DNA of 64,000 nucleotides from Saccharofermentans sp. (lineage in GTDB: Bacteria > Bacillota > Clostridia > Saccharofermentanales > Saccharofermentanaceae). The notes beneath the pieces were generated by a model that worked only from the letters and a program-made list of their open reading frames with translations, searched no databases and was not told the origin of the DNA. The stretch covers positions 1 through 64,000 of the forward strand of contig JAKSRJ010000008.1 of the NCBI GenBank assembly GCA_024403715.1, read 5' to 3'. Each line of letters starts with the position of its first letter. The stretch's first letter is position 1. This document shows positions 46,281 through 60,514 of the stretch, piece by piece. Both the position numbers and the translations under genes were made by a program.

Positions 46281-46286
46281 TATAAA

Positions 46287-46318
46287 AATAATCCGTCTGT
46301 TGACGGATTATTTATTTT
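46287..46318. terminator. Bidirectional terminator between convergent genes
   Basis: An 11-bp perfect stem (46287-46297 with 46302-46312) and four-base loop TGTT. A T-rich tract follows on the plus strand and a clearer T run on the minus strand, so it can end both the dehydrogenase and the operon read from the other side. Confidence 0.88.
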
Positions 46319-47057
46319 ATCCTCTAGTCGCTGATGGTTCAGTTGCTTCAGTTTGAGCAATAACAGGTGCATAACCCAACTCACCTTCAGTTTCAGCTGG
46401 TTCAGTTGGTTGAACATACTCTCCATCACCTAACTGAGCAGTAACCGGGAACCTAACATTTAACGGATAATAATCCAAAATTGCAACGTACTTATCCTGA
46501 AGATCTGCCGAACCATAAATATCTGACTCCTCCATACTTCTATTGTTACGATTAATCAAAGTAACTGATCCAATACTTACAAGCCATATAACTAAAGCTA
46601 AAAGAATTAAATGAATAGCAAGAAGTGGCGTAACTGGAAATATATTTACTAATTTTTGGACAGCTTTTGTCTGTTTCCCTCTCTTATTATCAGAAGACAT
46701 AAACTCAGCAACTTTGTAACTTGTAGAATCAAGCTTAGCAATAATTTTTTCCAGCATTGAGTTACGAGTATATTCATCAAGTGTTCTCGGAGCAAAATTA
46801 ACGCCTTCAGGCAATGGATATTTATCAACAATTTCATTAGCATTTTTTAATAAAATGTCGCCAAAAACATATAAAACATCTTCGGGCTTAATTGAACTTC
46901 TCTGTTGATATGTTTCCAAATATGATTTAACTATAGCATTCTCTGTACGAGTAGTTTCCTTACAAACACTATAAGTAGATGCATAAACCATTTCAACTGT
47001 ACTAAGATAAAAATTCTCAAAGTTTTCTCTTGTTAATTTCTCATTCCAAAGGTCCAT
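46317..47057 (-). CDS. Single-pass membrane protein with a sigma-factor-like N-terminus
   Basis: I do not recognise this 246-residue protein. Residues 10-50 (ENFENFYLSTVEMVYASTYS, then an acidic helical section) recall region 2 of ECF sigma factors, a weak resemblance. Residues 88-140 are helical and charged. One membrane segment lies at about 143-166. The remaining 80 residues are predicted outside the cell, Tyr- and acidic-rich, ending in a Pro/Thr/Glu-rich tail. Start ATG 47057 has GGGAGG upstream and lies 17 bases inside the MFS gene, so the two are coupled. It might link an external signal to the cytoplasm. Confidence 0.6.
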   Translation of the reverse strand: MDLWNEKLTRENFENFYLSTVEMVYASTYSVCKETTRTENAIVKSYLETYQQRSSIKPEDVLYVFGDILLKNANEIVDKYPLPEGVNFAPRTLDEYTRNSMLEKIIAKLDSTSYKVAEFMSSDNKRGKQTKAVQKLVNIFPVTPLLAIHLILLALVIWLVSIGSVTLINRNNRSMEESDIYGSADLQDKYVAILDYYPLNVRFPVTAQLGDGEYVQPTEPAETEGELGYAPVIAQTEATEPSATRG

Positions 47058-49140
47058 TGTAATAACCTCCCTGAGTTGAATCTGCAAGATCATCAATAAA
47101 GCTATTTACATCAAGATTAGATGTAGGCATAACCATCTGTTCCTGACCATAAATATCATTTTCAGGAGTCTCCCCATCAACAGCCATAATAATCTCTGGG
47201 GTAACTTCTACAGATGGGCGAATTATTGGATCTGGATTAGAATTCACTTTTTCCTTCTTCTTACGCTTTAACTGTGGATCTCTCTCATCAATCTGACTTG
47301 AATACTGAGATAACGGATAGATGAAAGAAACTATAAAATAAATAACTAATGCAACTACAAATACAATTCTGATATCAAACATTAGAGCAAGCATAAATAC
47401 TGGAACAGAAATCAATCCACCACAAATAAATGAAATTTCACAAGCTCTTCTAAGATTATACTTATTCTTAAATCTAGAATTGGTGAGTAAATATAAAACA
47501 TATAGATAATAGAAATCGTGAATACCTAAGCCTAACCCAACAAGAGCACTTGTTATAAATAGCATCTTAGCAGTAGGTACCAAAGCAAATAGCAGCAGTC
47601 CTAATAAAGAAGAAAATGAAGATAACAAAACACGAACTCTTGATGTCATTGCATAAGCATATCTCTCTTTAATAACAAATCCTATAAAAAGAGCAGCAAA
47701 TGTGGCAACCAAATAATAAAATGAGGCAGTTGCTAAGGAGATGCCTACAGTAGGTAAATAATTAGGTAAAAAACTGAGCATAAATGCTACTAGAACACCC
47801 ATAGATAAGAAAGAAGAAGCCAAAAACCTACCAGCATACTTATCAGACATCAATTCAAGCCATCTAGTAATTGGGAAATATGATTCCTTAACAGGCTGAT
47901 TATCTCTCATAAAGAAAATAATACCCAAACTAGCAACAATCATTACCGCACCAGCAATAACATTTACAATTAAAAGGCCAAATCTCTCATAGCAAATTCC
48001 TGCAATAACAGTTCCAACAGCAATACCCAAGAAATAGCCTGTGTACTGGACGTTATGAATCTTACGATCAGAGAACTCTTCGTAACCTAATCTACCAGCA
48101 TTCATTCTATAGTCACGCATAACATTGAAGGCCATACCATAAGCAAATCCAGTAAATAGTAATAGAACTAATGTAACAGGTAGTAAATCAACTATTCCTG
48201 CAAGTAAACTAAACATATAACCAATTGCATTTGTAACTATTAATGCAATACGTGAAGTCAATTTAAATTTGAGTTCTCTTCTAACAGCAGAACCGCCAAA
48301 AAAGCCAAAAGCGTATAATATGATTCCAAGAGCGATTAAACTTTGTACAACTGGTGATGTATAACTATAGTCCTGCAAACAGTCTTTAACATACAAAGGT
48401 ATAATTACAGGTATCATTACAGCACCAAGAGAAGCAAAGAAAGATAAGAAACTAACTGCTTCCTTACCATACATAATAATCACTGGAACATTTCCAGATA
48501 TACCTCTTGAGACAGTAGAAACAAATAAATTGAGTTCATAAATAATAATACCCATAGCCACTGCGATGGAAATAATAGTAAACACCCAACTCAAAGACAT
48601 ACCATTAACAGTTGAGACAAAATCTGCATATGGCATTCTAACTTCTAGAATACCAGCGACAGTATTCTCAGTTGAAATAATAGGAGCAATAGCACAAACA
48701 TATTTTACGCCGTTATCAGATCTTGTTGTAAAAGCAGCCTGCTGAAGCTCAAAACAGTTATTATACTGATCACCAACACCAGATAAATAATACTGTTCGA
48801 TTGATGAATTATCCGATGTTGTACAAAGTCTTAAAAAGGAATTACCTGCTTTCGTATAAATATCAAAAGTGTAAGCTTTACCCTTAGCATACTCATATAC
48901 AGGAAGAGGAAATGTCATTCCCTCCTCAATATTAGTGTGGCCTAAAGCAGTGGAGCAAGCAACAGAAATAGATTCCATTGCTTCTGCACGTTCAGACTCC
49001 AAAACAACAGTATAAGTATCAGTTAAAGTTTTGCTCATAACGAGAAGTACAACAAGGACAATGACAAAACAATAACCAATCGTAGTAGCTATGCTTTTCC
49101 TTTCCTTTCTACGCCTAATTTCAGCGGAATTTCTACTCAT
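47041..49140 (-). CDS. MFS permease with an N-terminal extracytoplasmic sensor domain
   Basis: A 699-residue protein of unusual build. A first membrane segment (about 18-36) is followed by an outside domain of about 145 residues that ends in APIISTENTVAGILEVRMPY, a Cache/PAS-like finish. A second segment (182-203) leads to an MFS-like permease of about twelve segments (225-615), with an RD-rich loop and GLGLGIHDFYYLYVLYLL. The last 80 residues are hydrophilic and probably cytoplasmic. Substrate unknown. The layout suggests transport or signalling controlled by an external ligand. It overlaps its upstream partner by four bases (ATGA). Confidence 0.72.
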   Translation of the reverse strand: MSRNSAEIRRRKERKSIATTIGYCFVIVLVVLLVMSKTLTDTYTVVLESERAEAMESISVACSTALGHTNIEEGMTFPLPVYEYAKGKAYTFDIYTKAGNSFLRLCTTSDNSSIEQYYLSGVGDQYNNCFELQQAAFTTRSDNGVKYVCAIAPIISTENTVAGILEVRMPYADFVSTVNGMSLSWVFTIISIAVAMGIIIYELNLFVSTVSRGISGNVPVIIMYGKEAVSFLSFFASLGAVMIPVIIPLYVKDCLQDYSYTSPVVQSLIALGIILYAFGFFGGSAVRRELKFKLTSRIALIVTNAIGYMFSLLAGIVDLLPVTLVLLLFTGFAYGMAFNVMRDYRMNAGRLGYEEFSDRKIHNVQYTGYFLGIAVGTVIAGICYERFGLLIVNVIAGAVMIVASLGIIFFMRDNQPVKESYFPITRWLELMSDKYAGRFLASSFLSMGVLVAFMLSFLPNYLPTVGISLATASFYYLVATFAALFIGFVIKERYAYAMTSRVRVLLSSFSSLLGLLLFALVPTAKMLFITSALVGLGLGIHDFYYLYVLYLLTNSRFKNKYNLRRACEISFICGGLISVPVFMLALMFDIRIVFVVALVIYFIVSFIYPLSQYSSQIDERDPQLKRKKKEKVNSNPDPIIRPSVEVTPEIIMAVDGETPENDIYGQEQMVMPTSNLDVNSFIDDLADSTQGGYYNGPLE

Positions 49141-49814
49141 AGACGCTGACCTCTCTTTCCGGCATTAATAAACTTAGGAACTAAAAGCTGAATAATATAG
49201 ACAACGATTCCACAAGCTACAGTAATAATAACTGAAGTCAAAATCTTACTTTCAAAATTATCACCCATCTGCTTAAGATTATTAAAACTACACTTATACT
49301 CAAATACAGCAACACATCTACCAGTAGAATCAGCAATAGGAACCAATATACTCTCAGTAGTACTTGTACCAACAGTAGTTGGATTATTATCAATATTAAG
49401 CCAGTCTGAGATATCTCTAGAAGCAACTTCAAATGATTCAGGAGCTTCAGGTCCATGGCTCATCAAAACAGAAAGTCGGCCTTCTGTATATAAAAACAAA
49501 GCGTAACTCTCTGTTGTATAGCTCTCTGTTGTAGTATCAGCAAGCATCAATGCTAAAACATCATTATACTTAACAGCAGCATTTGAAGGATCAGCTGCAA
49601 TCTCATCACCATCTAATGTCATCCCTACAACATCACAAATTGATGAGAGTTTATTATCCGTTGTATTTCTAAACTCAGTCTCAAACTGTAATCGCATATG
49701 ATGAACAGCAAATGAAACCGATAAAATCGATAACAAAAGTGACACAATAATTAGAATAACAGTTCGAATAACTCTGTTGAGAACATCTGTCTGATTGGCA
49801 GACCTATTATCCAT
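49137..49814 (-). CDS. Membrane-anchored extracytoplasmic sensor-like protein
   Basis: A 225-residue protein with membrane segments at about 15-38 and 193-213 flanking an outside domain of about 150 residues. Its end, SILVPIADSTGRCVAVFEYKC, matches the corresponding part of the sensor on the downstream MFS protein in pattern, so the two look like relatives of one Cache/PAS-type design. No kinase, HAMP or methyl-accepting part follows the second segment. RBS AAGGGAGA. First gene of the three-gene operon. Confidence 0.65.
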   Translation of the reverse strand: MDNRSANQTDVLNRVIRTVILIIVSLLLSILSVSFAVHHMRLQFETEFRNTTDNKLSSICDVVGMTLDGDEIAADPSNAAVKYNDVLALMLADTTTESYTTESYALFLYTEGRLSVLMSHGPEAPESFEVASRDISDWLNIDNNPTTVGTSTTESILVPIADSTGRCVAVFEYKCSFNNLKQMGDNFESKILTSVIITVACGIVVYIIQLLVPKFINAGKRGQRL

Positions 49815-57654: not shown

Positions 57655-59274
57655 TTAGAGAGTTGTTTCTTCAGAAGAAGCATCATTATTAGGTACTGGA
57701 GCCTCTGCTTCAGGAGCTTCCTGTAACTCTGGATTCTGTGCATTATCAATAGGAGCCTGTTCAACAGCTTCATCTTCATTATCATTAACTGGAATAGCTG
57801 TAGATTCTGTAGCAGTAGATACAGTATTTGATACTGCCTGAGTAACAGCAGATGATGTTGACGGCTCAGCAACAGGCGAATTTTCATCATCCATAATAAA
57901 TGACTCAGTTGGATCTACAGTTGGAATCAAAGGAGCCTCAAGCGGATCAGAAGCACTCAAGTTTACTGTTAGAACATAACCAGTTACATTGTTAGGAGCA
58001 ACAACCTTAGTAAAAGTACCCTCCTGCTCAACAAAAATTACACGTTCACCAACTGCCAAAGAAGCAATAACTGTACCCTCAGATGGAGCAGAATAAAGCG
58101 GAGTACCGTCAGCAGTAATATACATTACAGTCTCAACCAAAGTCTCATCAGATGACTTATCGAAAGGCTTAATCAAGCCCTTATATGAAGCATAAGCAAA
58201 CAAACCACCAAATGTAAGTCCGGCACAAAGAATAAATAACAACAAAGTAAGGAGTATACCTTTAATTACAGGATGCTTAGACTTACTCTTCTCCCCTGAA
58301 CTACTAGAATGTTTTACATTACTATTAAACACCTGTGTATCACTAGGCTCAGTCTCATTATAACCACCAAAAGCATCTGAACCATCATTATAAGGCTCTT
58401 CATAACTATTAGTGTTATTAGTAGCTACAAAATTATTAGCACTTGGGATAATTGCATCACCAGGGAGTAATAAAGTTGACTCAATATCAATTGCAGCGAA
58501 TGATAATCCATATTTTACACCGATGTTTGCAGCACTATTAACCAATTCATGAGCCTTAGCTTCAGTAGACATAGGCTTAATAAGAATAGAATTACGATTA
58601 TAAGCAGGCATAAGCTTAGAAATACCAATACCCATAAGACAGATACTATCATTATCCTTAAGCTTTAGGTGCACCTTCTTATCAGGCATAACTGCACCAT
58701 CCTGAGGCATCTTACCAAGATACTGTGTAAGACTAAAACGCCCCGGATGATTAGCCTCATCTTGAGCTGTAATGGCACCCATCTGAACATAACGATGAGC
58801 TACTGTTTGATCTTCAGTAAGAGCCATTATCTTACCACCGCGAACTAAGATAGCCTTTGTATTACCAATATGAATCATTCTCAAGGTGTCGCCTTCAATA
58901 ACAGCCATTGACATAGATGTTTTCAAAGGATTTCCACCATGAGAAACAATATAATTACATACATGAACGTTCAATGAATTTACGACTTGATTAGAGAATG
59001 ATTCAAAATCGAGAACAGGCTGTCCCTGAGCAGAAGAAACAATCTTAGACAATAACTGATTAAGCTCAATATTAAGCATCGCAGCTAAGGAATCAGGTCC
59101 TTGAGTAGATAATATAGCTACTACCTGAATTGGAGATGTAGATCTTGCTGTCCTAACAAATTCATTAGGAAAATCAGCCATAGTCCTATATAGAGTATGG
59201 AAGAAAATATTCTCCTGTGGCTGATTAGGCACAAGATTTGTCTCAAGAATACATGTAGATACTGTCTTACTCAT
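57655..59274 (-). CDS. PP2C-like pseudophosphatase with a membrane segment and SH3 domain
   Basis: A 539-residue protein in four parts: a PP2C-like domain (about 1-265), a linker, one membrane segment (338-362), an external bacterial SH3 domain (383-440) and an acidic Thr/Pro/Glu tail. The PP2C fold is recognisable from IHIGNTKAILVRGGKI (135-149) and TEDQTVAHRYVQMGAIT. The metal-binding aspartates of the active family are missing: DGMGG is STQGP (56-60), GDSR is GNTK (137-140), SDGL is GIGISK (215-220), and the final DN is absent. I infer a sensing or scaffold role rather than phosphatase activity. Confidence 0.78.
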   Translation of the reverse strand: MSKTVSTCILETNLVPNQPQENIFFHTLYRTMADFPNEFVRTARSTSPIQVVAILSTQGPDSLAAMLNIELNQLLSKIVSSAQGQPVLDFESFSNQVVNSLNVHVCNYIVSHGGNPLKTSMSMAVIEGDTLRMIHIGNTKAILVRGGKIMALTEDQTVAHRYVQMGAITAQDEANHPGRFSLTQYLGKMPQDGAVMPDKKVHLKLKDNDSICLMGIGISKLMPAYNRNSILIKPMSTEAKAHELVNSAANIGVKYGLSFAAIDIESTLLLPGDAIIPSANNFVATNNTNSYEEPYNDGSDAFGGYNETEPSDTQVFNSNVKHSSSSGEKSKSKHPVIKGILLTLLLFILCAGLTFGGLFAYASYKGLIKPFDKSSDETLVETVMYITADGTPLYSAPSEGTVIASLAVGERVIFVEQEGTFTKVVAPNNVTGYVLTVNLSASDPLEAPLIPTVDPTESFIMDDENSPVAEPSTSSAVTQAVSNTVSTATESTAIPVNDNEDEAVEQAPIDNAQNPELQEAPEAEAPVPNNDASSEETTL

Positions 59275-59304
59275 ATAATATCTCCGTCAAATTAAACTTT
59301 CACG

Positions 59305-59333
59305 ATTGTACAATAATTTGACAAAAGCCTCAA
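59305..59333 (-). promoter_or_regulatory. Promoter of the PP2C-like gene
   Basis: On the minus strand TTGAGG (59328-59333) and TACAAT (59305-59310) are 17 bases apart, the optimal spacing. The -35 overlaps the stop codon of the DUF3048 gene. A Shine-Dalgarno ACGGAG follows before ATG 59274. Confidence 0.6.
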
Positions 59334-60514
59334 TAGATTGAAGTATAATCAGCAACATCGCGATCAACAATGCAGATATAGGAACGTCCTGTATTAACTT
59401 CTAACTCATCACCATTCTGATTATAAACAATGATTGGGTCATTAGTACCAGCCTTAGACCAAGTTATAGGAATATATCTACCATCAGAGAAATAATAACC
59501 TGTACCACCATCTTCTAAGTACGCATCAATTGTGGAATCTCCATGAGGCTGGATATTTGCAAAAAGTACGAATACATTTGTAAATGCAATCTGTGTACCA
59601 GTTGTCTCATCAATCTGAGGATTACCATACTGAGACTTAGAATACAAACCAGTAGCAGAATCATAAACAAAATAAGCATCATCATTTGTAGCTGAGAAAT
59701 AAACATTAAATTCAGTACAAGTAGCAGCACCGTCTAAATCGGATGATTCATCAACAAAGTTAAAGAGTGTATTATTCTCATTATCAATCATTGAGATATT
59801 GTTATATTCAATACCTTCAAGAATATGTCTACCATCAGAAACCGCTGTATGCTCAATTGCTCTAATAGATTTCCAATAAGAATCTCTCCAGAAGAATAAG
59901 CCCTGAGGAAGAGATACATAACCATCTTCATATGCAGAAGAGCTATATACACCAGCAGAGCAGTTATTACCGTCAATATGATCAATACCATAGTTTGCAA
60001 TATGATCTGGAACTCGAGCATTTCTACCAAAATGGATAAATACAGAATTATTACCAGCTGCCAAGTCTGTTGACAAAACTCTAGCAGATCTTAATGAACC
60101 AATTTCTGGAATTGTATTAACATCAGCAAATAAACAAAGAAGTCTAGTCTGTCCACCTTCTGTCTGATATTCATAAATCGCATCAGCCTGAGAAATACCT
60201 CTCTGAGGCATAGCAGCATGGCAGTTATTAACAACAACTGCAACAGAACGCATTCCAACATTATCAGGATTCATTGTAAACTCACCTGTAATAGGATTAA
60301 GAGCTAATCCACTTGGATCAATTGTAGCTTCTGTCGCTACTGTAGTTTCAGCAATAATAGGAGCTAATTGCTGTTCTGTCTCTACAGGAGCTTCTGTCTG
60401 AGTAGCAACTGTAGTAGGGATAGTCTCAACAACCTCCTCTTCCTTAGAACAAGCAGCAAAAGGAATAGTCATAGCAGCTGTCATAGTAACTGCCGCAATC
60501 TTCTTAAAATTCAT
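59330..60514 (-). CDS. DUF3048 lipoprotein (YerB-like)
   Basis: A 394-residue exported protein: signal peptide with lipobox-like PFAAC (Cys22), a Thr/Glu-rich spacer (23-70), then the DUF3048 region with RSVAVVVNNCHAAMPQRGIS, ADAIYEYQTEGGQTRLLCLF and IGSLRSAR, and the second family block from about residue 285 (IAFTNVFVLFANI). The biochemical function of DUF3048 is unknown. It has an extended -10 promoter and GAGGT. Weak -3 lipobox position (Phe), so lipid attachment is probable but not certain. Confidence 0.82.
   Translation of the reverse strand: MNFKKIAAVTMTAAMTIPFAACSKEEEVVETIPTTVATQTEAPVETEQQLAPIIAETTVATEATIDPSGLALNPITGEFTMNPDNVGMRSVAVVVNNCHAAMPQRGISQADAIYEYQTEGGQTRLLCLFADVNTIPEIGSLRSARVLSTDLAAGNNSVFIHFGRNARVPDHIANYGIDHIDGNNCSAGVYSSSAYEDGYVSLPQGLFFWRDSYWKSIRAIEHTAVSDGRHILEGIEYNNISMIDNENNTLFNFVDESSDLDGAATCTEFNVYFSATNDDAYFVYDSATGLYSKSQYGNPQIDETTGTQIAFTNVFVLFANIQPHGDSTIDAYLEDGGTGYYFSDGRYIPITWSKAGTNDPIIVYNQNGDELEVNTGRSYICIVDRDVADYTSIY

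Follow-up and report, generated by a model that had tools for sequence, protein, structure and literature searches.

What is the role of an operon that combines two extracytoplasmic sensors, a permease of the major facilitator superfamily (MFS) and a small membrane protein with a sigma-like N-terminus? The question is raised by three overlapping minus-strand genes at positions 49814-46317 of a 64,000-nucleotide stretch of Saccharofermentans sp. (contig JAKSRJ010000008.1; this whole stretch is hereafter called the window). The genome from which the window comes is a 2.09 Mb draft and belongs to the Saccharofermentans family, its named relatives being Saccharofermentans metagenome-assembled genomes and strain KHP2. 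Our analysis suggests that the operon encodes an undescribed sensing or transport complex. As best explanation, with a probability of about one half, we propose a Cache-Cache/MFS receptor-transporter complex that would carry a membrane-tethered, repurposed sigma region 2 domain as its cytoplasmic output or adaptor subunit.

Organization of the operon

Analysis of open reading frames (ORFs) and hydropathy confirmed the layout given in an earlier description made from the DNA letters alone (the sequence-only reading), with overlaps of 4 bases between genes 1 and 2 and of 17 bases between genes 2 and 3. The three architectures that it had proposed, namely transmembrane (TM)-sensor-TM without an output domain for gene 1, TM-sensor-TM-MFS-tail for gene 2 and a single-pass protein for gene 3, were likewise borne out by hydropathy, ORFs and domain matches. 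Gene 1 (49137-49814, minus strand) encodes 225 residues, with TM helices around residues 19-37 and 194-212 and, as judged also from an AlphaFold2 model of a fused homologue, a Cache/PDC-like extracytoplasmic domain (sensor 1, residues ~40-190) between them. Gene 2 (47041-49140, minus strand) encodes 699 residues; hydropathy, Pfam and structural matches indicate two TM helices flanking an extracytoplasmic sCache-like domain (sensor 2, ~45-180), an MFS module of about 12 TM helices (~225-615) and a variable cytoplasmic tail (616-699). The product of gene 3 (46317-47057, minus strand; 246 residues) comprises, according to its AlphaFold2 model and profile matches, a cytoplasmic domain derived from region 2 of extracytoplasmic function (ECF) sigma factors (~8-80), a conserved helical linker (~91-123), one TM helix (~150-168) and an extracytoplasmic tail ending in SATRG. 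Its ATG start codon is preceded by GGGAGG, and a TTG could alternatively open a longer ORF. MFS_1 in gene 2 was the only Pfam match above cut-off in the three products.

A domain of gene 3 derives from ECF sigma region 2

Profiles of all three genes were searched against 391 Clostridia genomes (222 genera), and in Bacillota the search covered 398 genomes for gene 3 and 169 for gene 2. All 10 matches of the gene 3 profile outside the family were ECF sigma factors, each aligned at region 2, and six of them were confirmed by Pfam. Profile-profile comparison of gene 3 with ECF sigma factors by hhalign, using an ECF set mostly picked by the gene 3 profile itself, gave 94.6%. Weak NCBIfam SigE matches were found in 14 of 35 gene 3 members (best 0.0013), and several hallmarks of sigma region 2 are retained (E39, Y/F46, F65 and L69, together with N72 in the genus).

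The AlphaFold2 model of gene 3, whose predicted local distance difference test (pLDDT) values are mostly >90 over residues 10-110, was consistent with this origin. Seven of the eight best VIA matches were ECF sigma factors (AlgU, Z 9.1; CnrH, 8.5; SigW, 8.5; AlgU, 8.4; SigR, 7.4; sigH, 7.0; sigL, 6.5), the other being 9n9q_C (Z 7.8, root mean square deviation 15), which belongs to an RNA-guided transcription complex. In ninth place came 6ldi_F (4.7), a chain of an E. coli transcription complex that corresponds to sigma70 by numbering, and the best chain outside the transcription machinery reached a Z of 4.4. As the Z values alone are modest, it is the sequence matches outside the family, all of them to ECF region 2, that settle the descent, and we see very little room for doubt that residues ~8-80 of gene 3 have this ancestry. 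The weak likeness to sigma region 2, the most hesitant guess of the sequence-only reading, has thereby become the best supported of its proposals, by structure as well as by profile matches.

Gene 3 has lost features of a working sigma factor

Despite this ancestry, gene 3 is in all likelihood not a functional sigma factor, because region 4 is not detectable and the clamp-binding motif is lost. No Pfam match to region 4 was obtained at E<=1 in 35 + 23 members. Sigma region 2.2 touches the beta' clamp through its DAED motif, without which the holoenzyme cannot form (PMC8103513). Alignment to ECF sigma factors places residues 37-40 of gene 3 (R-T-E-N; codons at 46938-46949, minus strand) at this position, where 23 of 23 members carry [RK]-[TAC]-E-[NQRMIL]: position 37 is always R/K, and position 40 is never acidic, against D/E in six of six ECFs. 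Position 43, polar in ECFs, is Val/Ile/Leu in 20 of the 23, and the sigma-derived domain is mostly net acidic. The absence of region 4 and the lost clamp motif contradict the view of gene 3 as a plain sigma factor.

Gene 3 gave no Pfam match to a receiver domain, its architecture being sigma2-TM-tail. The TM segment spans residues 144-171 as a helix in the model and 150-168 by hydropathy, and the positive-inside rule predicts an orientation with the N-terminus inside and the C-terminus outside. Gene 3 proteins share 23-69% identity across the family, and all end in SATRG or close variants, A243, T244 and G246 being invariant. The extracytoplasmic tail, whose end lies at 46317-46340 of the window, varies freely yet closes on this near-invariant S-A-T-x-G, which would suit recognition of the very C-terminus.

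Two Cache-like sensors and a natural gene fusion

Both sensors were modelled with AlphaFold2 from a relative in which genes 1 and 2 are fused (452 residues, mean pLDDT 79, predicted template modelling score 0.75), and the model was compared with solved structures. Sensor 2 matched 8py0, the sensor of an Oscillibacter formate chemoreceptor (Z 12.9 over 134 residues, 2.8 Å), as well as WalK and CitA (Z 12.7), and sensor 1 matched 3cwf_B (Z 10.8 over 106 residues, 2.5 Å) and LuxQ and CusS (Z 9.1). In the model, therefore, both sensors are predicted to be Cache/PDC folds held between two TM helices, and the unrelated folds that would have told against the sequence-only reading were not found. The Pfam family sCache_3_3 weakly matched sensor 2 in 17 of 18 fused proteins, below cut-off where shown (best E 4.2e-4; 19.1 bits in the first member, against a cut-off of 28.8), and no Cache family model matched sensor 1. 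Homology between the sequences of the two sensors was undetectable by hhalign (14.6%), so the earlier statement that gene 2 repeats the TM-sensor-TM part of gene 1 holds for the plan and not for the sequence. In sensor 2, with its fold like those of formate and citrate sensors, R104 is kept in 17 of 18 members and R140 in all 18.

In 19 of 49 rows, genes 1 and 2 form a single open frame that keeps all parts of both (~870-1050 residues among the complete ones), and split copies retain the 4-base overlap. In a gene 2 tree the fused forms make up one group (Shimodaira-Hasegawa-like approximate likelihood ratio test support, 99) nested within the split forms, with one change in all. The tree was built by a quick method and carried a long-branch warning for the outgroups, on which the single-event conclusion does not depend. 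From these sequences the fusion is a single derived event. Because the two genes are fused in nature, their products almost certainly work together; the fusion is good evidence for one complex, and we hold it very probable that they constitute one functional unit. The pairing of the two sensors put forward by the sequence-only reading is thus strongly supported.

The MFS module of gene 2 (protein P0002) scored 42.2 bits against the MFS_1 cut-off of 33.4, and MFS_1 was matched in 18 of 18 members from across the family. No solved relative was found by sequence for whole gene 2 or for gene 3. With a profile restricted to the MFS module, the plant sugar transporter STP10 was recovered at 8e-5, the second half of the module being aligned to the first half of STP10; given this offset, the kinship is at superfamily level only. 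The predicted MFS helices contain no acidic residue that is invariant among the members compared, which is unusual for a proton-coupled porter. The tails that follow the module differ among loci L021-L051, the fused clade having a long low-complexity stretch rich in Q, P and Y and genus g20 a very short tail.

The gene set is conserved within one family

A match to the gene 2 profile was present in 100 of 115 genomes of the Saccharofermentans family, in five genera (74 of 85 genomes in the genus and 26 of 30 in the four others), mostly as a single copy per genome; most of the negative genomes, not all, are incomplete. No match was found in 73 genomes from other families of the order, nor outside the family in the Clostridia and Bacillota genomes searched. 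The wide occurrence in Clostridia that had been considered was rejected, as the class- and phylum-wide searches gave nothing outside the family except, with gene 3, ECF sigma factors and, with gene 1, weak matches of short length; the set is restricted to one family. Within that family, conservation of the gene order was as anticipated: order 1-2-3 was kept in 34 of 34 loci examined from the five genera, and gene 1 was present in 14 of 14 further loci, the four other genera included.

The flanks of these loci vary: near the window they hold murD and ABC transporters, the fused clade has a divergent gene, and an LtaS-like sulfatase or an SLBB/HHH protein is the neighbour in other loci. Because the order is constant in the 34 loci while the neighbours differ, the three genes are a unit and not a chance cluster. 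A set so nearly universal in a single family of rumen and gut bacteria, and not found in any other, probably fulfils a core function there. The neighbourhood was rejected as a clue to that function, LtaS-like, murD, LytR-CpsA-Psr and XerD-like genes each bordering only part of the loci. The divergent gene upstream of fused gene 1-2 encodes 650-920 residues (L040:6630-9095, with equivalents in L042-L051 and L089) and gave no Pfam match in the one member scanned.

A proposed membrane complex and its alternatives

We propose that the operon products would assemble into one membrane complex, with the Cache pair outside, the MFS module in the membrane and the sigma-derived module inside. The two different Cache sensors of genes 1 and 2 would pair outside the cell, a partnership shown by the fusion, through an interface that we infer. 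As the sensors sit directly on the MFS module, ligand binding likely alters its state, which could either gate transport or let the module serve as a receptor (a "transceptor"). Gene 3 would be the third subunit and is probably a physical part of the complex. The lack of a detectable region 4 and the loss of the clamp-binding charges point to gene 3 being, most likely, a repurposed sigma-fold module for protein binding, which, like the sigma mimic PhyR, would capture or present a partner in the cytoplasm instead of recognising promoters. A regulatory output through sigma-fold mimicry has, in our estimate, odds a little below even. The fullest version, an undescribed transmembrane signalling architecture in which the Cache pair reads a ligand, the MFS module serves as a receptor or a gated transporter, and a tethered region-2-only sigma derivative unable to start transcription relays the signal by such mimicry, we regard as rather unlikely.

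Several points weigh against the proposed complex. For a domain made entirely of helices the Z scores of gene 3 are moderate, the model has low confidence over residues 124-246 apart from the TM helix, the ECF set of the profile-profile test was chosen as described above, and the contact of gene 3 with the other two products is one that we infer. One ECF sigma was found in the window's genome, where it overlaps by 4 bases a downstream 239-residue anti-sigma-like protein with one TM helix (L093:1414-2711, G000 contig C3). This ECF had no relative at E<=1e-5 in three operon-carrying genomes of genera g17-g19, so titration of its anti-sigma cannot be the common function of gene 3.

In g17-g19, a tethered regulator that lacks an ECF/anti-sigma partner is hard to explain, and this favours a serious rival, which we hold possible though doubtful: a regulated core envelope transporter, or a flippase of lipid-linked precursors, under Cache control, in which gene 3 would be a structural or assembly subunit and its sigma fold mere ancestry. 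Near-universal presence in mostly one copy (100 of 115 genomes) would fit a housekeeping function, and the lack of an invariant acidic residue in the MFS helices speaks for it as well. Envelope genes adjoin the operon in several lineages (murD; an LtaS-like sulfatase directly upstream; LytR-CpsA-Psr downstream), but this link is weak since the neighbours differ between lineages. A sensor pair on an MFS module suggests signal-dependent control, and the sigma-derived domain is well conserved, with no decay, both of which argue against this rival.

Another alternative is a strict PhyR-type mimic, in which the triggered sensors would make gene 3 sequester an anti-sigma and so free an ECF sigma. 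An intact sigma2 fold with degenerate polymerase contacts is what PhyR has (PMC8103513), and the overlapping ECF and anti-sigma-like genes of the window's genome could supply the partners. We consider it improbable, however, as that ECF had no relative at this threshold in the genomes tested from the three operon-carrying genera, the anti-sigma-like protein matches no Pfam family, no zf-HC2 anti-sigma was found in the genome and gene 3 has no receiver domain. Even less probable is a membrane-tethered sigma subunit that would direct transcription after the sensors fire, either freed by regulated proteolysis or active while still anchored, together with a distinct region-4 protein, on the model of RsoA and SigO. 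True homology to sigma region 2 is in its favour, and there are precedents in ECF52, ECF53 and IutY, sigma factors with C-terminal TM parts of which IutY is released by proteolysis (PMC8999054), and in SigO-RsoA, where a region-2-only protein is half of a sigma factor (PMC8103513). The DAED motif is lost in all members, however, the domain is mostly net acidic and hydrophobic at position 43, and gene 3 has no region 4. PF08281 matches in the window's genome comprised the ECF, a response regulator, L122 and, weakly and under the family cut-off, the 162-residue protein L123 (G000 contig C19:20584-20709). For L123, a region 4 standing by itself is one possible identity and a regulator of phage type another.

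Transcription and surroundings

The sequence-only reading assumed a promoter common to the three genes, which is not established in the window: gene 1 lies only 56 bases from the upstream, same-strand murD, making read-through into the operon possible. A promoter scan gave fewer promoter-like sites than its shuffled controls. The upstream gene in the fused clade is divergent and lies ~300-540 bases away in nearly all loci, so that transcription of the operon has a start of its own there. Directly after gene 3, between it and a convergent dehydrogenase-like gene, a hairpin of 12 pairs with a T-rich tail (46286-46313, no strand assigned) is likely a terminator. Further upstream in the window (57655-60514), a DUF3048 protein adjoins a protein with a PP2C-like N-terminal part, one TM helix and an SH3_3 domain.

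Comparison with known systems

As the sequence-only reading had supposed, no described system with this set was found: the open-access literature yielded no report of the gene set, of a Cache-MFS fusion or of a sigma derivative that is tethered to the membrane and has region 2 only, and no paper on sigma factors of Saccharofermentans. Each domain family is already known; it is their combination in one operon, a non-canonical sigma relative with a sensor-coupled membrane protein, that was not found described. Cache receptors such as CitA, WalK and the formate chemoreceptors share the TM-Cache-TM extracytoplasmic sensor, but their known outputs belong to signal transduction proteins, whereas the sensor of gene 2 is linked to an MFS module. 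A survey of Cache domains makes no mention of transporters or MFS (PMC4822843). With gene 2, MFS modules would join the partners of Cache sensors, which form the largest class of extracytoplasmic sensors in bacteria. MFS proteins act as receptors in UhpC/UhpB and in yeast Snf3/Rgt2, the latter also with a long cytoplasmic tail. These resemble gene 2 in using the MFS fold for sensing, but have neither fused Cache domains nor a sigma-derived partner, and their downstream parts are unrelated.

For gene 3, the nearest known membrane-bound systems are ECF48, ECF52, ECF53 and IutY (ECF243), complete sigma factors with C-terminal TM extensions (PMC8999054). They share a cytoplasmic ECF region 2 with a TM helix C-terminal of the sigma part, and SCO4117 also a proline-rich extracytoplasmic part (PMC8999054). 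In these proteins, however, a complete sigma2-sigma4 core is fused to anti-sigma-like parts, while in gene 3 neither a region 4 nor an anti-sigma domain is detectable, the DAED motif is lost and the operon partners are sensors and an MFS protein. PhyR, from the alphaproteobacterial general stress response, likewise combines an ECF-like fold with degenerate promoter and polymerase contacts and uses it to bind a protein, titrating an anti-sigma (PMC8103513). It differs in having sigma2- and sigma4-like parts, a receiver domain and a phosphorylation switch, gene 3 being membrane-anchored and sigma2 only. The sigma2-only subunit RsoA, which works with SigO, lacks region 4 as gene 3 does (PMC8103513). 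RsoA acts with SigO at promoters, whereas gene 3 is anchored and its clamp motif is lost. To our knowledge, RsoA has no membrane anchor, and PhyR is the only case of sigma-factor mimicry that we know of. Gene 3 resembles PhyR and RsoA in part and is neither. If it transmits a signal, it would represent membrane-bound sigma-factor mimicry, in which the sigma fold is reused at the membrane, away from promoters.

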